A stretch of DNA of 33,979 nucleotides from Pontibacterium granulatum. GTDB taxonomy: Bacteria; Pseudomonadota; Gammaproteobacteria; Pseudomonadales; Balneatricaceae. A model generated the notes under the pieces. The model was not told the origin of the DNA and did not search any database. It was given only the letters and a program-made list of their open reading frames with translations. Location: the NCBI RefSeq assembly GCF_029961155.1, contig NZ_JASBRH010000036.1, positions 1-33,979 of the forward strand. The letters run 5' to 3'. The position numbers and the translations under genes are program-made. This document shows, piece after piece, positions 4,975 to 10,408 of this stretch; position 1 is the first letter of the stretch; each line of letters starts with the position of its first letter.

Positions 4975-7710
4975 TTAGTGCTGGAGCCTGTATATCTGCC
5001 AGTCTTCGACCGGGTCATTCAGCATCATCTTCATGTCCACCACCTCCTCTTCCGCATTAAAGCTGTTGCGGAAACCCAGCTTTTTCGCCAGCCCCTGCAT
5101 CCCTTTATTTGACGGCAGAGTCGAGCCGATAATCTCGAGCGTTCCGCGATCACGACAGTAGTCGATTACCTTCTGCATCAGCATCTCACCCAGGCCTTCG
5201 CCCTGCAGATCATCACGGATCACGATTGAGAACTCGCTGCGAATATTGTCCGCATCAGTCACGGCACGCACGACACCCAAAGTCTCGGAGCCCTTTCCTT
5301 CCAGCTTCGGTGCAGAGATGATAAAGGCCATCTCGCGGTCGTAGTCGATCTGGGTCCAGGTTGCCAGCTCTTGATGAGTAGGCACACCGCGGCTGTAGAA
5401 GTAGCGCATGCGGATCGATTCCGGGCTTAGCGTGTTGTAGAAAGCCAGGTGGTTCGGCTCATCTTCACCACGAATCGGACGGATCTCAGCGGCACGCTTG
5501 GAGCGTCGCAGGGTGATATCTTCGCTCAGATGTTCCGGGTACGGCGAGATCGCCGGTTCCACCGCCTCACCCAGAGATACGGTTGCATCTACTACCAGCA
5601 GACCGCGTTTGTTCAGAAGCAGTGGATTGATCTCCAGGCATGCCAGGTTCGGCAGGTCGACCACCATCTCGGACAGCTTGATCAACAGCTCGCACAGCTG
5701 CTCCAGATCACGCTCCGGCTGGTAGCTGTTGGCCTGGATAACACTGTATACGCGGGAGCGCTTCACCAGCTCTTTTGCCAACGCCGTGTTCAGTGGCGGC
5801 AGCATAACCTGTCGGTCCGCCTGCACGTCCACTGCGTAACCACCCACACCGAAGATAATCATCGGGCCGAAGGTTGGGTCACGCGTAATACCCACGTTTA
5901 TCTGCAGGGACTGGAAGCCTCGCTTCATCTGCTGTACGCAGAAGCCCATACATTCCTGATCTTCATAGCGCTCACCCACACGGTAGGCCAGCTTGGTCAC
6001 CGCATGCTTCACTTCGCTGATGGAGTACAGATCCAGTGCCAGATCTTTCCAACGCTGGTTAGACTTTTCATCATAGAAAAACGGATAGACGTTGTCTTTG
6101 TGCAGCGCCTTTACGGCGACAGATCCGCCCAGGTTCTTGGCGATCTCCACCACGCCGTTAATGTCATCAGCGTACGCGGTGTTGATGGTCGGCACGTCGT
6201 ACAGATCCAGCAGGTCACCCACTTCCGGGTGAGTCAGGTAATCACGCTTCTCATCCAGCGCAGCGTGCACCAACTCCCGTGCCCGCACGTGGTTCGGTCC
6301 ATTCTGCTCGGTATACGGCATCGGGGTCTGGCGCATGACATCTTGGTTACGGTGGTAATCCACCATGTGCATAAACGCGTCTACGCTCTCTTCCGGCGAG
6401 ATAAAGGTCGGAATGCCCGCGCTGGTAAAGTGGTTGCGAGATTCAATCGCCGTCGCACGCCCCATCCAGCAGGTCAGCACATTACGCGGGGTTTTCCGCG
6501 CCACCTTTACCACTTCGTCGGCCGTTTCCACGCCCGATGCAAGCCGTGTAGGCGCATGCAGCACCATGATGCCGTCGACGTTTTTATCTTTGGACAGAAT
6601 TCGAATTGTTTCTGCAAAGCGTTCCGGCGTTGCATCGGCGTGCAGATCCACCGGATTGAGGCCATCCCAATGACCCGGCATATGCGCCCGCAACTGCTCA
6701 ATGGTCTGTTCCGTCAGATCACTCAGCTGACCACCTTTTTTCAGCAGACGATCGGTCGCCAGGGAGATCAGCCCGGACCCGTTGGACACAATGGCCACAC
6801 GCTCGCCACGCATCGGTTTCATGCGTGACAGCGTTTCCAGCGCATTAAACAGCTCATCCGAGGTATCAACCCGCACAGCACCGGCACGACGCAAGGCTGC
6901 GTCATACACCTGGTCTTCGTCATCCAGGCCCGGTGCCACATCACTCTGCACCTGCTGGTTACAAATCACGTCAGATTTCAGCACCAGTACCAGCTTATTC
7001 CGGGATGCAGAACGGATCGCAGAGAGGAAGTTACGGGACGAGCCTTTTACGCTGTCAATCTGCAGAAGGATCGACTGGGTAAAAGGATCCTTGGCCAGAT
7101 AATCCACTACCGATGGCAGATCCACGTCAACACCGTCCCCCAGGGTCAGGAAGTGGGAAAAACCGATATCGTGACCGTTGGCCCAGTCAATCATGGCGGT
7201 CCCTAGCAGTCCCGACTGCCCAACGTACGCCACCTTGCCCTTCTGGATATTCACGTGGGAGTAGCTGGCGTTCATCTTGTTCCCCGGCACCAGCATGCCC
7301 ATACAATCAGGTCCCAGGATACGGATACCGTACGGGCGTGCCGCTTCTCGCACCTCGTCATGTAACGTGCGCTTGGTTTCCGCATTCAAACTGGAAAGCC
7401 CGCCGGTCAGAATCACCGCGGCCTTCACCATGTTGGCGCCCAGCTTGCGGATGATGCCCGGTACCGTCTCCGGTGGAGAACAGATAATCGCCAGATCAGG
7501 CATCTGGGGCAGATCACCGACGTTTTTCACACAAGGCACACCAAATACCTTGTCGTAGCCTTGTGAGTTAACGGCCATCAACTCTCCCTGATAGCCACCT
7601 TCCAACAGGTTTTGCAACACTGCACCTCCCATGCTGTTCTCTTTTTCGGACGCACCGAATACAGCGATGGAGGTAGGTTTAAAAAAGCGTTTGAGATACT
7701 TGGTACTCAA
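4975..7710 (-). CDS. patZ: PatZ/Pat-type protein lysine acetyltransferase (NDP-forming acyl-CoA synthetase-like, GNAT C-terminus)
   Basis: Large cytoplasmic enzyme of about 911 residues with the PatZ (YfiQ/Pka) architecture. A CoA-binding Rossmann domain comes first (KPTSIAVFGASE near residue 12), then succinyl-CoA-ligase-like domains (VGQSGLLGTAM, LGPDCMGM), an ATP-grasp region, and a C-terminal GNAT domain from about residue 743 with the acetyl-CoA loop QGEGLG. In enteric bacteria PatZ acetylates lysines, notably of acetyl-CoA synthetase, using acetyl-CoA, while the synthetase-like part is regulatory and not catalytic. I prefer TTG 7710 because GAGG lies 6 bases upstream and the protein then begins MSTKYLKRFF like its relatives; TTG 7734 is the other option. 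It is monocistronic with a terminator about 155 bases downstream. An FNR-like site lies about 110 bases upstream. Confidence 0.88.
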   Translation of the reverse strand: MSTKYLKRFFKPTSIAVFGASEKENSMGGAVLQNLLEGGYQGELMAVNSQGYDKVFGVPCVKNVGDLPQMPDLAIICSPPETVPGIIRKLGANMVKAAVILTGGLSSLNAETKRTLHDEVREAARPYGIRILGPDCMGMLVPGNKMNASYSHVNIQKGKVAYVGQSGLLGTAMIDWANGHDIGFSHFLTLGDGVDVDLPSVVDYLAKDPFTQSILLQIDSVKGSSRNFLSAIRSASRNKLVLVLKSDVICNQQVQSDVAPGLDDEDQVYDAALRRAGAVRVDTSDELFNALETLSRMKPMRGERVAIVSNGSGLISLATDRLLKKGGQLSDLTEQTIEQLRAHMPGHWDGLNPVDLHADATPERFAETIRILSKDKNVDGIMVLHAPTRLASGVETADEVVKVARKTPRNVLTCWMGRATAIESRNHFTSAGIPTFISPEESVDAFMHMVDYHRNQDVMRQTPMPYTEQNGPNHVRARELVHAALDEKRDYLTHPEVGDLLDLYDVPTINTAYADDINGVVEIAKNLGGSVAVKALHKDNVYPFFYDEKSNQRWKDLALDLYSISEVKHAVTKLAYRVGERYEDQECMGFCVQQMKRGFQSLQINVGITRDPTFGPMIIFGVGGYAVDVQADRQVMLPPLNTALAKELVKRSRVYSVIQANSYQPERDLEQLCELLIKLSEMVVDLPNLACLEINPLLLNKRGLLVVDATVSLGEAVEPAISPYPEHLSEDITLRRSKRAAEIRPIRGEDEPNHLAFYNTLSPESIRMRYFYSRGVPTHQELATWTQIDYDREMAFIISAPKLEGKGSETLGVVRAVTDADNIRSEFSIVIRDDLQGEGLGEMLMQKVIDYCRDRGTLEIIGSTLPSNKGMQGLAKKLGFRNSFNAEEEVVDMKMMLNDPVEDWQIYRLQH

Positions 7711-7820
7711 GTGGGACCTCGAAGCGTGCAACAAATCTAATGACGTTATAGCAGGGATATATTACGGTGGTTGATTCTACTACCATCGTCTAAATTTCGC
7801 AGGTGCAAAATTAGAACCCT

Positions 7821-7834
7821 TTGATATTGATCAT
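7821..7834. promoter_or_regulatory. FNR/Anr-like palindrome upstream of patZ
   Basis: TTGATATTGATCAT matches the FNR/Anr consensus TTGAT-N4-ATCAA except for the last base. It lies about 110 bases before the chosen patZ start. A matching -10 at the usual distance is not convincing, so the site could be fortuitous. Confidence 0.3.
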
Positions 7835-7861
7835 AGTTAGCCGCTGCAAATGGCGTGCATT

Positions 7862-8010
7862 AAAAAACGCGGTACGGAACACGCCCATACCGCGCTTTGA
7901 AAAGACACCTGTTGCGCGGCAACACCGCCATCCAGACGGGCTTAGAAGCCGCGAAATGGTGTCGTAGATCTCCCATACAGGGATTCGTTTAAACCGCCAC
8001 CTTGACAATA
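7862..8010 (-). ncRNA. Candidate structured small RNA with its own terminator
   Basis: Read on the minus strand, this roughly 150-base stretch has a promoter-like start (8018-8047), nested pairing and a terminator. GGTGTC at 7958-7963 pairs with GACACC at 7904-7909. Inside it GCCGCG (7948-7953) pairs with CGCGGC (7915-7920), leaving a 27-base loop with further self-complementarity. The transcript would end in a TACCGCG/CGCGGTA stem (7868-7894) followed by six T. A 65-codon frame overlaps it but runs through the terminator and lacks a good start. It lies between patZ and a small acidic protein gene. I do not recognise a known RNA family. Confidence 0.5.
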
Positions 8011-8017
8011 GTTTTGA

Positions 8018-8047
8018 TTATTAAATGAACAATAGTTCAATTATCAA
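8018..8047 (-). promoter_or_regulatory. Promoter with a palindromic operator in the spacer
   Basis: On the minus strand TTGATA (8047-8042) is a good -35 box, and an AT-rich TAATAA-like -10 lies 17-18 bases further. The whole spacer is occupied by the palindrome TGAAC-AATA-GTTCA (8026-8039). A dimeric repressor of TetR or MarR type binding there would block RNA polymerase. It would drive the candidate RNA at 7862-8010. Confidence 0.5.
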
Positions 8048-8177
8048 ACGTAGCACGCCTCTCTATCTGAAAATTTCTCATCCAGTTGGACGATTCCCGC
8101 CCAGAATTTCTCTGTTCATTTTTCCGTAATTTGGGCCATACTCAGCACATACTCGATAATCAAACGGGGTGGTGATC

Positions 8178-8387
8178 ATGGCTAGAAACCCGCGACACGA
8201 CCAGACATCTGATTCGGTCGAAGAGGAATGGCTGGCGGATGGAGAGTATGACTCCGCCGAAGAAGAATCCAGCGTTATCTACAAGTCCTCCGGTATCAAT
8301 CCGAGCAAGCGACGCCGCATAGAGATGATGCAGGAAGAACGAGAACTGCAAAAAGCATTGCGTGAAGTGTTCGACGACGAAGACTGA
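8178..8387 (+). CDS. Small highly charged protein, PA3496-like
   Basis: A 69-residue acidic and basic, probably disordered-to-helical protein. The N-terminal half is rich in Glu, Asp and Ser. A KRRRIE patch (near residue 45) leads into a final helix ending LREVFDDED. This shape, with a basic R-x-IE segment and an acidic DVFDE-like end, recalls the small Pseudomonas PA3496 family, tentatively linked to the envelope; that match is from memory and moderate. ATG 8178 is chosen because GGGGTGG lies just upstream; GTG 8169 would add three residues. It precedes arfB by about 40 bases on the same strand and may share its transcript. Confidence 0.6.
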   Translation: MARNPRHDQTSDSVEEEWLADGEYDSAEEESSVIYKSSGINPSKRRRIEMMQEERELQKALREVFDDED

Positions 8388-8428
8388 AATACTTTACCCC
8401 GATCCGTCTGATCGCATAGAGTATCGGG

Positions 8429-8842
8429 ATGCTAAAGATATCCAACAACGTCTCTATCCCGGATGAGGAGATTGAGCTACGTGCGATTCGTGCACAAGGT
8501 GCTGGTGGCCAGAACGTAAACAAGGTTTCCAGCGCTATCCACCTCCGGTTCGATATCCGGGCATCGTCCTTGCCCGAATTTTACAAAGAACGCCTACTCG
8601 CCCTCAGTGATAGCCGTATCAGCAACGACGGTGTCATTGTGCTCAAATCTCAGGAACACCGTAGCCAGGAACTTAACCGCGAAGCCGCACTCGCACGCCT
8701 GGTTATGCTGATCACGCAGGCAACCTCTGTCCAGAAGAGCCGCCGTGCCACCAAGCCTACCCGTTCATCCCAGCGCAAACGTATGGATAGGAAAACCCAG
8801 CGTGGCCAAACCAAAGCACTGCGCGGCAAGGTTAATTACTAG
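8429..8842 (+). CDS. arfB: Alternative ribosome-rescue factor ArfB (peptidyl-tRNA hydrolase)
   Basis: A 137-residue release-factor-like protein. The catalytic GGQ sits at residues 26-28 within [15 protein letters not shown], and the C-terminal 40 residues form a basic tail ([18 protein letters not shown] and onward). In ArfB (YaeJ) this tail enters the empty mRNA channel of stalled ribosomes while GGQ hydrolyses the peptidyl-tRNA. Length and both parts match the family, and no stop-codon-reading domain is present. The gene runs towards the Na/phosphate transporter gene, and the two 3' ends overlap by 11 bases with no terminator between them. Confidence 0.93.
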
Positions 8843-10408
8843 GTAGTTTGCCATCCTGCTGCATGGCATCCTGCAGATGGGAATCGATGCGGGACAGATG
8901 TTTGCTGACCCGCACCAGCCATCGCAGCGCTTCCAGTTGATCCGTGCCCTTCTCTACTTCCAGATCACCACTGACCATATCGGCAATCACCGCTTGCCGG
9001 ATGCGCGTCCGATGGTGCTCCAGCCGATAGTATTCAGCCTCCAGCACCGCAGGATCAGGATGGGCAGCCTGTAGATACTGACGCAAAGACACCAGTGGTG
9101 AGCGCAGCAATTTCATTGTGCACGCGGTGATACCCCGCTCTGGCTCTTCGTCACAGCGTTCGTGCAGGCGTTGCAGGTGGTCCATACCATGCATCATTGA
9201 CGTCAATGTATGCCACAGGCGTGCCTGATCGGGTTTAAGGTCTATTGCGTCAAGAAATTTGTGCAGGTGATCCAGATTATGCTGCAGCTCTACCAACCTT
9301 CGCCGGTCAGCTCGCTCACCCCGCAGTAATAACGCGAGCTGCTCACACACCAGATCACGTTGCTGCTTGAGCTGAGGCAGGGCTGCGTGCAGAGCTATAG
9401 AAGGTTCACGCAGCAACAACGGATCAAGCCGCAAGGCGGGTGTTTCAGTACGATCAGGCACCAGATACTCGATGAAACGTGCAAACAGGTGCACAAATGG
9501 CAACATCACCACCACAGCAGCCAAGTTAAACGCCGAGTGGAAGGCTACCAGTGCGATTTCTGCCGACTGCTCAATGTTCTGTCCAGCCACATGCTCCCAG
9601 ACATGGATAAAGGGCTCCAGCATCAGCAACGCAATCACCACGGTGGCCAGATTAAACACCAAGTGGGACACCCCCGTGCGGCGAGCTTCTGCCCGCCCCC
9701 CCCCCCCAGAGTGACGATTAGCGCCTTAACGGATGTGGCCAGATCCATTCCGATCACCACGGCCGCCGCCTGAGCAAAGTTGACGCTCCCGGCATACAAC
9801 AGCGTTAACATGGTGGCCACACCGGCACTTGAGGATTGGGTAATCAGCGTGATGGCGATCCCCAATCCGATCAGCTGCAGGCGACCGGTGAAACTGTCGT
9901 CAGGAAAGGCATCGGGGGTCAGCACATCGCCAAAATCCTGCATGCCAAGCTGCATCTGACCGATACCCAGAAAGATAAGACCAAACCCTGCCAGCGCGTA
10001 TCCCAGATCTGACAATCGTCCACGGGCAAAGATACGCAGCATGGCGCCCAGAAAGATAAGCGGCAACAGCAACGTACCCAGTTTGAGTTTGAATCCCAGA
10101 AAGACTACAAGCCAGCCGGTGACGGTGGTACCAAGGTTGGCACCGTAGACGATTCCCAGGGCTTGGGGAAAGGAGAGCAAGCCCGCACTCACGAAACCCA
10201 CCGCTGCGATGGTCGTGGCACTGGAGGATTGCAGAATTGAGGTGGACGCCGCACCGGTGATTGCGCCGGTAAGCGGACTACGTGTGGAACGCGCCAGCAG
10301 CCGCTGCAGCCCCTCGCCTGCCCCCGAATGCAATCCATCGACCATGATCACCATGCCGAGAATAAACACCCCGAGGCCACCCAGTGCCTGCAGCAGTCCT
10401 AATAGCAT
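8832..10408 (-). pseudogene. Na+/phosphate cotransporter (NptA/YjbB family) split by a frameshift in a poly-G tract
   Basis: Two adjacent frames make up one protein. The upstream part holds membrane helices and both QSSSA repeats of the PNaS family (LQSSSATT near residue 60 and TQSSSAG near 195). The downstream part continues with RAEARRTGVSHLVFNLATVV, two more helices and a PhoU-like helical cytoplasmic domain. The frames switch at a run of 12 G on the coding strand (9696-9707). With 10 or 13 G the frame would be continuous and the protein about 525 residues, a normal length. As read, translation leaves the frame and ends at 9635. ATG 10408 is favoured by GGGAG just upstream; GTG 10441 lacks a ribosome site. 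The cause may be true slippage, phase variation or a sequencing error. Confidence 0.8.
9696..9707. repeat. Homopolymer run of 12 C (G12 on the coding strand)
   Basis: The run is followed on the coding strand by CGGG, so 15 of 16 bases are G. It lies at a Gly-rich loop of the transporter where relatives usually have LGGS or similar. Runs of this length are prone to slippage in replication and transcription, and to miscounting by sequencers. Confidence 0.95.

Follow-up and report, generated by a model that had tools for sequence, protein, structure and literature searches.

Known RNA partners of 6S RNA and related small RNAs

6S RNA is a widespread regulator of RNA polymerase, and its release is described as proceeding via the synthesis of a pRNA. 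According to the part of the source available to us, pRNA is short and pairs with the central region of 6S RNA, and this pairing is incompatible with polymerase binding (PMC10406553). The small RNA (sRNA) described here is predicted to be similar in this respect, but pRNA is synthesised by the polymerase from the 5' strand of 6S RNA, whereas the sRNA has a gene and a terminator of its own and a predicted pairing to the 3' strand. Another RNA complementary to 6S RNA is a transcript antisense to it in Enterococcus faecalis V583, for which a role in the degradation or maturation of 6S RNA was proposed, as cited in a paper that, in its accessible part, gives the transcript as not found in the 115 RNA-Seq libraries screened (PMC8414754). 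The Enterococcus transcript, as far as the excerpt describes it, originates at the 6S locus, whereas the sRNA is encoded elsewhere, is structured, and matches 6S RNA only with its first 13-22 nt.

That sRNAs can act on other sRNAs is already known. An example, in the portion of the source at hand, is StsR of Rhodobacter sphaeroides, which is controlled by a stress sigma factor and acts on another sRNA, UpsM (PMC8307010). StsR is alphaproteobacterial and its targets, as far as that portion goes, are UpsM and the dcw 5' UTR and not 6S RNA, so that we rejected it as a precedent for 6S targeting (PMC8307010). ErsA of the gammaproteobacterium Pseudomonas aeruginosa depends on the envelope-stress sigma factor sigma22 (AlgT/U) and is set beside the sRNA by its description only; the targets named for it in the available excerpt are algC and amrZ (PMC7565897).

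Within the accessible parts of the open-licence papers searched, no sRNA that targets 6S RNA from a gene of its own was found, and pRNA apart, only the Enterococcus antisense transcript appeared. As for layout, RybB and MicA are generally known as sigma-E sRNAs of E. coli with a 5' seed, a terminator and outer-membrane mRNA targets. The sRNA shares with them the 5' seed, the terminator and possibly a sigma-E promoter, and the RybB and MicA seed sequences presumably differ from its own.

The locus between patZ and the PA3496-like gene

The window is a stretch of 33,979 nucleotides of Pontibacterium granulatum DNA. A preliminary description had placed a candidate regulated sRNA on the minus strand of the spacer between patZ and a PA3496-like gene, and the palindrome, the nested stems and the terminator that it named are all present there; the sRNA gene occupies this intergenic region from about 8006 to 7862. 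The features are the following:

4975-7734, minus strand: patZ (gene name from the preliminary description), with the Pfam domains CoA-binding, Succ_CoA_lig, ATP-grasp_5 and GNAT.
7862-7898, minus strand: intrinsic terminator with a 15-bp stem and a T-run; the stem is kept, with one both-sided and a few one-sided changes.
7862-8006, minus strand: sRNA of about 145 nt with a putative start at G8006; the invariant block opens with GTCAAGG.
7904-7963, minus strand: central three-tier hairpin, which includes the nested stems; its shape is conserved at 25-40 identical columns out of 75 aligned.
7966-7983, minus strand: small hairpin TCCC-N5-GGGA, followed by GATCT; GGGAGATCT is invariant in four of four carriers and the stem is kept.
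7989-8005, minus strand: predicted 6S-pairing stretch, sRNA nt 2-18, with 17 consecutive pairs to 6S nt 117-133 in the window genome.
7993-8006, minus strand: invariant 5' block GTCAAGGTGGCGGT, 14 nt, whose nt 2-13 are a perfect complement of CCGCCACCUUGA in 6S RNA.
8013-8017, minus strand: TCAAA, candidate ECF -10; the relatives have TCTGA, TCTGA and TCTAA.
8026-8039, minus strand: palindrome TGAAC-TATT-GTTCA (TGAACTATTGTTCA, read from 8039 to 8026), operator candidate overlapping the -35; 14 of 14 bases are invariant in the four carriers.
8034-8038, minus strand: GAACT, candidate -35 of putative RpoE/AlgU (ECF) type, invariant in four of four carriers.
8178-8387, plus strand: PA3496-like short gene (label from the preliminary description), without a Pfam match.
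Next after the PA3496-like gene: an RF-1-domain protein of 137 aa.

None of the 4227 Rfam families reached its gathering cut-off in the window, and for the sRNA stretch none came near it, the match of lowest E-value having 18 bits with a cut-off of 58. A scan of viral contigs with the PA3496-like protein returned no relative.

Conservation and distribution

Matches to the sRNA were found by a first search in 4 of 57 genomes, the window's own genome (G000) counted, all within the genus. The carriers are G000, G002, G003 and G004. A search of the genus (Pontibacterium/Marinobacterium) shows the sRNA in four of its five genomes; it was not found in the other genera searched. G001, whose sequence is identical to that of M. 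jannaschii DSM 6295, gave no sRNA match, and its fetched stretches hold the PA3496-like gene without patZ. As G003 and G004 are nearly identical at the sRNA locus, the number of independent lineages among the carriers is no more than about three.

Inside the element, the four aligned carriers have the following invariant runs of at least 6 columns: TGAACTATTGTTCA, GTCAAGGTGGCGGT, GGGAGATCT, CGCGGTATG and CCGCGTTT. The distance from the start of the palindrome to the start of the 5' block is 33 nt in all four, and some further bases between the two are likewise invariant. The list of open reading frames includes a frame of 65 codons in the window sequence, which is closed in G004 and G002, and the reading as an ORF was rejected. 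Since all three sense frames contain stops in G004 and G002 (one is open in G000), the sRNA is not a conserved peptide gene.

A covariance model, which was built including the window sequence itself, matches that sequence at 7861-8006. Among 390 genomes of the order, of which G000 is the sole carrier, it also matched G210 and G326, but these matches are bidirectional terminators and were rejected as homologues. Applied to 31 loci, the model gave seven matches, six of them the G210/G326 terminators and one of 11.9 bits (E 0.19). Other genera of the family contain the exact 13-mer of the 5' block at 41 places. Of the 30 places inspected by eye, none has the operator or GGGAGATCT, and 27 fall within a frame that stays open for 100 codons or more on one of the strands. 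At the level of sequence comparison, the carriers demonstrate a gene conserved in one lineage, with an RNA structure under selection and an invariant stretch of the first 14 nt.

RNA structure and terminator

In the nested stems, GACACC (7963-7958) pairs with GGTGTC (7909-7904) and encloses CGCGGC/GCCGCG. The minus strand of this region, taken as 149 nt, folds with -62.6 kcal/mol against -45.9 +/- 3.8 kcal/mol for shuffled sequences (z -4.39, 0/200). A consensus scan of positions 6000-10000 lists another hairpin, at 7924-7910, and not the main terminator.

From GATCT to the terminator, 40 of 75 columns are identical between G000 and G004, 25 between G000 and G002 and 27 between G004 and G002, and each of these sequences folded alone gives the same three-tier hairpin. 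For the hairpins of G000, G004 and G002, the pairwise tree distances add up to 58, whereas 1000 shuffled triples average 149 and never fall below 92 (0/1000); G003 was omitted from this shape test as a near copy of G004. Judged by the energy of the single-sequence hairpin, shuffled sequences were as low in 0/1000 cases for G000, in 3/1000 for G004 and in 159/1000 for G002. For the full-length G002 RNA the minimum-energy fold differs, and the three-tier hairpin forms once the 5' end is kept unpaired.

On a plain MAFFT alignment, RNAalifold finds a change on both sides in 7 of 37 pairs, while 8 of the 37 are broken in one sequence, 7 of these within the central hairpin, over which G002 is aligned out of register. 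When the helices are aligned by hand, which was done after the folds had been seen, G004 and G002 differ on both sides in 5 of 8 pairs of the outer tier and in 3 of 5 of the innermost tier; these helices are unbroken by construction, because they were taken from each sequence's own fold. The compensatory stem changes in relatives that the preliminary description had set as a test of its proposal were therefore found, by RNAalifold (7/37) as well as in the hand-aligned helices (5/8 and 3/5) and next to a shared shape reached by 0/1000 shuffles. The nested stems and the terminator are present as it had described them, with the hairpin architecture and the terminator conserved in relatives, and its claim of a new regulated sRNA is likewise supported by the compensatory changes and the shape shared beyond 1000 shuffles, with two parts in need of change, the promoter and the omission of the 5' block. 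Judged by its sequence, that the locus is a stand-alone, regulated sRNA gene appears nearly certain.

Complementarity of the 5' block to 6S RNA

The preliminary list lacked what turned out to be the most informative part of the element, a 5' block that does not vary and is complementary to 6S RNA. The exact 11-mer complement CCGCCACCTTG was searched for in G000, G002 and G004, and this search was not aimed at 6S RNA. It returned 18 places in the three genomes (8 + 6 + 4), three of them at the sRNA gene itself, three in 6S RNA and 12 elsewhere. The 6S RNA is the sole non-self place common to all three genomes; 2 of the 12 other places, in G000 and G004, are by eye antisense to the same gene. 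The match is identified as 6S RNA by Rfam family RF00013 with 96-98 bits, and 6S RNA was detected in all 27 genomes scanned. Its segment CCGCCACCTTGAA is found in the 6S RNA of all four carriers, of G001 and of G021, and is absent from that of the other 21 of the 27 genomes, two of which are without the site by the search pattern. As CCGCCACCTTGAA also occurs in G001 and G021, non-carriers in which no sRNA was found, the 6S site did not evolve for the sRNA.

All four carriers have 12 perfect (Watson-Crick) pairs plus one with 6S RNA. The uninterrupted run from nt 2 comprises 17 pairs in G000 (one G-U), 22 in G004 and G003 (the first 19 Watson-Crick) and 13 in G002 (one G-U). Duplex energies were compared with a background of 4000 of 4018 windows of 180 nt, a mixture of DNA from many genomes that excludes loci retrieved on account of the motif and any window containing the 12-mer, and net gains including folding costs were compared with 200 controls with a shuffled 5' end. 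The values, in kcal/mol, are:

G000: RNAduplex -31.1, reached by 0 of 4000 background windows; net gain -13.9, reached by 0 of 200 controls, best control -13.1.
G004: RNAduplex -40.8, reached by 0 of 4000; net gain -14.3, reached by 0 of 200, best control -11.2.
G003: RNAduplex -40.2, reached by 0 of 4000; net gain -13.6, reached by 0 of 200, best control -13.5.
G002: RNAduplex -28.0, reached by 10 of 4000; net gain -2.2, reached by 18 of 200, best control -6.7.

The margins over the best control are small in G000 and G003, and G002, the most diverged carrier, is the weak point for the pairing with 6S RNA. Among the four 6S RNAs, the best partner of each sRNA is its own, with a tie between G003 and G004 because their 6S RNAs are identical; the G004 sRNA reaches -40.3 kcal/mol with the 6S RNA of G001, almost equal to the value with its own. 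In the extension of the pairing, one pair has changed on both sides between G004 and G000 (C-G to A-U) and one has become U-G.

The target corresponds to nt 126-137 of E. coli 6S RNA, at the junction of the upper stem with the 3' strand of the central bubble, and the target strand is predicted to be partly paired in free 6S RNA. In the available part of the source, nt U134-G143 of 6S RNA are described as single-stranded, as contacting E-sigma70 and as being drawn into a stem in the pRNA-driven release (PMC10406553); the overlap of the sRNA target with this segment is 4 nt, nt 134-137. The first 13-22 nt of the sRNA most likely pair with 6S RNA, as far as the modelled duplexes indicate. The broader proposal that a regulated sRNA base-pairs with 6S RNA and thereby blocks or remodels it is, in our judgement, about evenly balanced.

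Promoter and palindrome

A sigma-70 promoter had been proposed for the sRNA at first. The consensus scan of positions 6000-10000 gives only one promoter-like site, at 6098, and the -35 that such a promoter would need, TTGATA, is not conserved in relatives, so that this promoter was rejected. Instead, GAACT is followed after 16 nt by a candidate -10, of which the T, the C and the last A are invariant and the two middle bases vary, and which ends 6 nt before the 5' block. A GAACT-N16-TCnnA arrangement is close to the layout of RpoE/AlgU promoters, and the site reads better as a putative GAACT-N16-TCwrA promoter of this type than as sigma-70. The operator that the preliminary description had put into the promoter spacer stands as a palindrome, present and invariant in the four carriers, but it is probably not within a plain sigma-70 spacer. 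The second half of the palindrome is more conserved than a spacer requires, which counts against the RpoE/AlgU reading, and a repressor may possibly act on the palindrome together with either sigma factor. The palindrome brings to mind sites that we take to be of the FabR/DesT type of TetR regulators or of the ArsR type (TGAA-N6-TTCA).

These promoter elements bear on one of the two main rivals, the other being a titration of the sRNA by 6S RNA. The sRNA could be an ordinary trans-acting, mRNA-directed envelope-stress RNA, transcribed by RpoE/AlgU and using the 5' seed GGUGGCGG on mRNAs, with the 6S match as an incidental or side interaction. The arrangement GAACT-N16-TC(A/T)(A/G)A is kept in four of four carriers with the 6-nt gap to the invariant block, and an exposed 5' seed with a terminator behind it is also how sigma-E sRNAs like RybB and MicA are laid out. 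RpoE itself is above the curated cut-off in all five genus genomes, and GGAACTwA...TCATA, with a related -35, lies upstream of rpoE in the four genomes examined for it. However, copies of the strict consensus GGAACTT-N15/16-TCTGA number 0 in G000, 1 in G002 and 2 in G004, and none of the five rpoE loci gave a hit in a scan with GAACYY. At the level of exact 11-mers there is also no mRNA site common to the three genomes, and by our estimate a Watson-Crick run of 19 nt with 6S RNA, as in G004, is very unlikely to arise by chance. We therefore regard this explanation as unlikely, while giving it real weight.

Upstream of rpoE, the loci L086, L088 and L089 have GGGAACTAAC...GTTCATAGAGTGTAGTTCG in common, which is possibly an autoregulatory rpoE promoter and presumably departs from the E. 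coli sigma-E consensus.

Among the TGAACWNNWGTTCA sites of the five genus genomes, whose contexts were compared by eye, the palindrome of the sRNA is the only shared one. A second exact copy of TGAACAATAGTTCA lies in the window's genome at C12:26607-26620 (L078 1501-1514), by eye between an aminotransferase-like gene and dksA. This copy is not kept in G002-G004 and, by eye, no other TGAACWNNWGTTCA site is shared, so that a wider regulon of the palindrome was rejected. At G000:C9:37808-37821 (L073), the neighbouring palindromes TGAACACATGTTCA and TGAACGTGTGTTCA were seen by eye between a Rieske-type oxygenase-like gene and a regulator gene. The available parts of the literature yielded nothing on the palindrome beyond a paper on Corynebacterium AtsR.

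Proposed action on 6S RNA

A more far-reaching reading, to which we give somewhat less than even confidence, is that of a lineage-specific, stress-induced anti-6S RNA that invades the 3' bubble strand of 6S RNA and frees the sigma-70 polymerase or triggers the decay of 6S RNA. Transcription would run from at or near G8006 to the terminator at about 7862, and the 5' end of the sRNA would serve as a seed for base-pairing with 6S RNA. The pairing may push the 5' arm out of the upper 6S stem and extend into the strand that contacts the sigma-70 RNA polymerase and is later folded into the release hairpin, whereby 6S RNA would be kept from holding the polymerase or be marked for cleavage. The sRNA would in this way be an antisense-type counterpart, acting in trans, of the pRNA that is made from the other 6S strand. 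More weakly, its expression may depend on an RpoE/AlgU-type sigma factor, on a regulator binding to the palindrome, or on both, and 6S RNA would therefore be neutralised under a particular stress.

If this is true, cells can also switch 6S RNA off through another promoter and another stress signal, and a genetic off-switch is added to a brake whose known release is its own pRNA. Envelope stress or another stress would be tied directly to global transcription, and the sRNA would be a natural tool for dissecting 6S RNA. The prediction is precise, as sRNA nt 2-13 should pair with CCGCCACCUUGA of 6S RNA, with species-specific extensions.

The same complementarity would be expected if the abundant 6S RNA acted as a sponge that titrates the sRNA, whose true targets would then lie elsewhere, and the 6S site is indeed older than the sRNA. 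The run of 17-22 pairs exceeds, however, what a shared seed needs, and it points to 6S RNA as the partner in G000, G003 and G004, so that we think such a titration decidedly improbable.

Relation to patZ and neighbouring elements

The patZ frame begins about 130 bp downstream of the sRNA on the same strand, and a conserved element is also found upstream of patZ; the sRNA could accordingly be a patZ leader or attenuator, with transcription from its promoter continuing past the terminator into patZ in certain conditions. Against this, the terminator is both strong and conserved, a separate conserved block precedes patZ, and in the g16 genomes patZ adjoins the PA3496-like gene across another and shorter spacer (L018, L020-L022) that gives no sRNA match. 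A leader function is highly improbable on these grounds. That unrelated sites and a terminator came together by chance, without function, would fit the narrow distribution and the lack of an Rfam match, but is barely credible in view of the conserved structure, the invariant blocks and the both-sided pair changes.

The conserved block before patZ is non-coding and lies at 7745-7828 on the minus strand, between the terminator and patZ; it is strongly conserved, with the invariant runs AATATCAAA, GTTCTAATT, TGCACCTGCG, AGACGAT, GTAGTAG and TGCTATAACG. It presumably carries the promoter of patZ along with a site for a regulator. In the g16 genomes another palindrome-like element is found upstream of patZ, for example TTTTGCTGCAGTGCAAAA. 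At the loci L017, L024, L026, L031 and L040, from several other genomes, the PA3496-like gene and patZ are some 1.2 kb apart, with what appears to be an additional gene between them.
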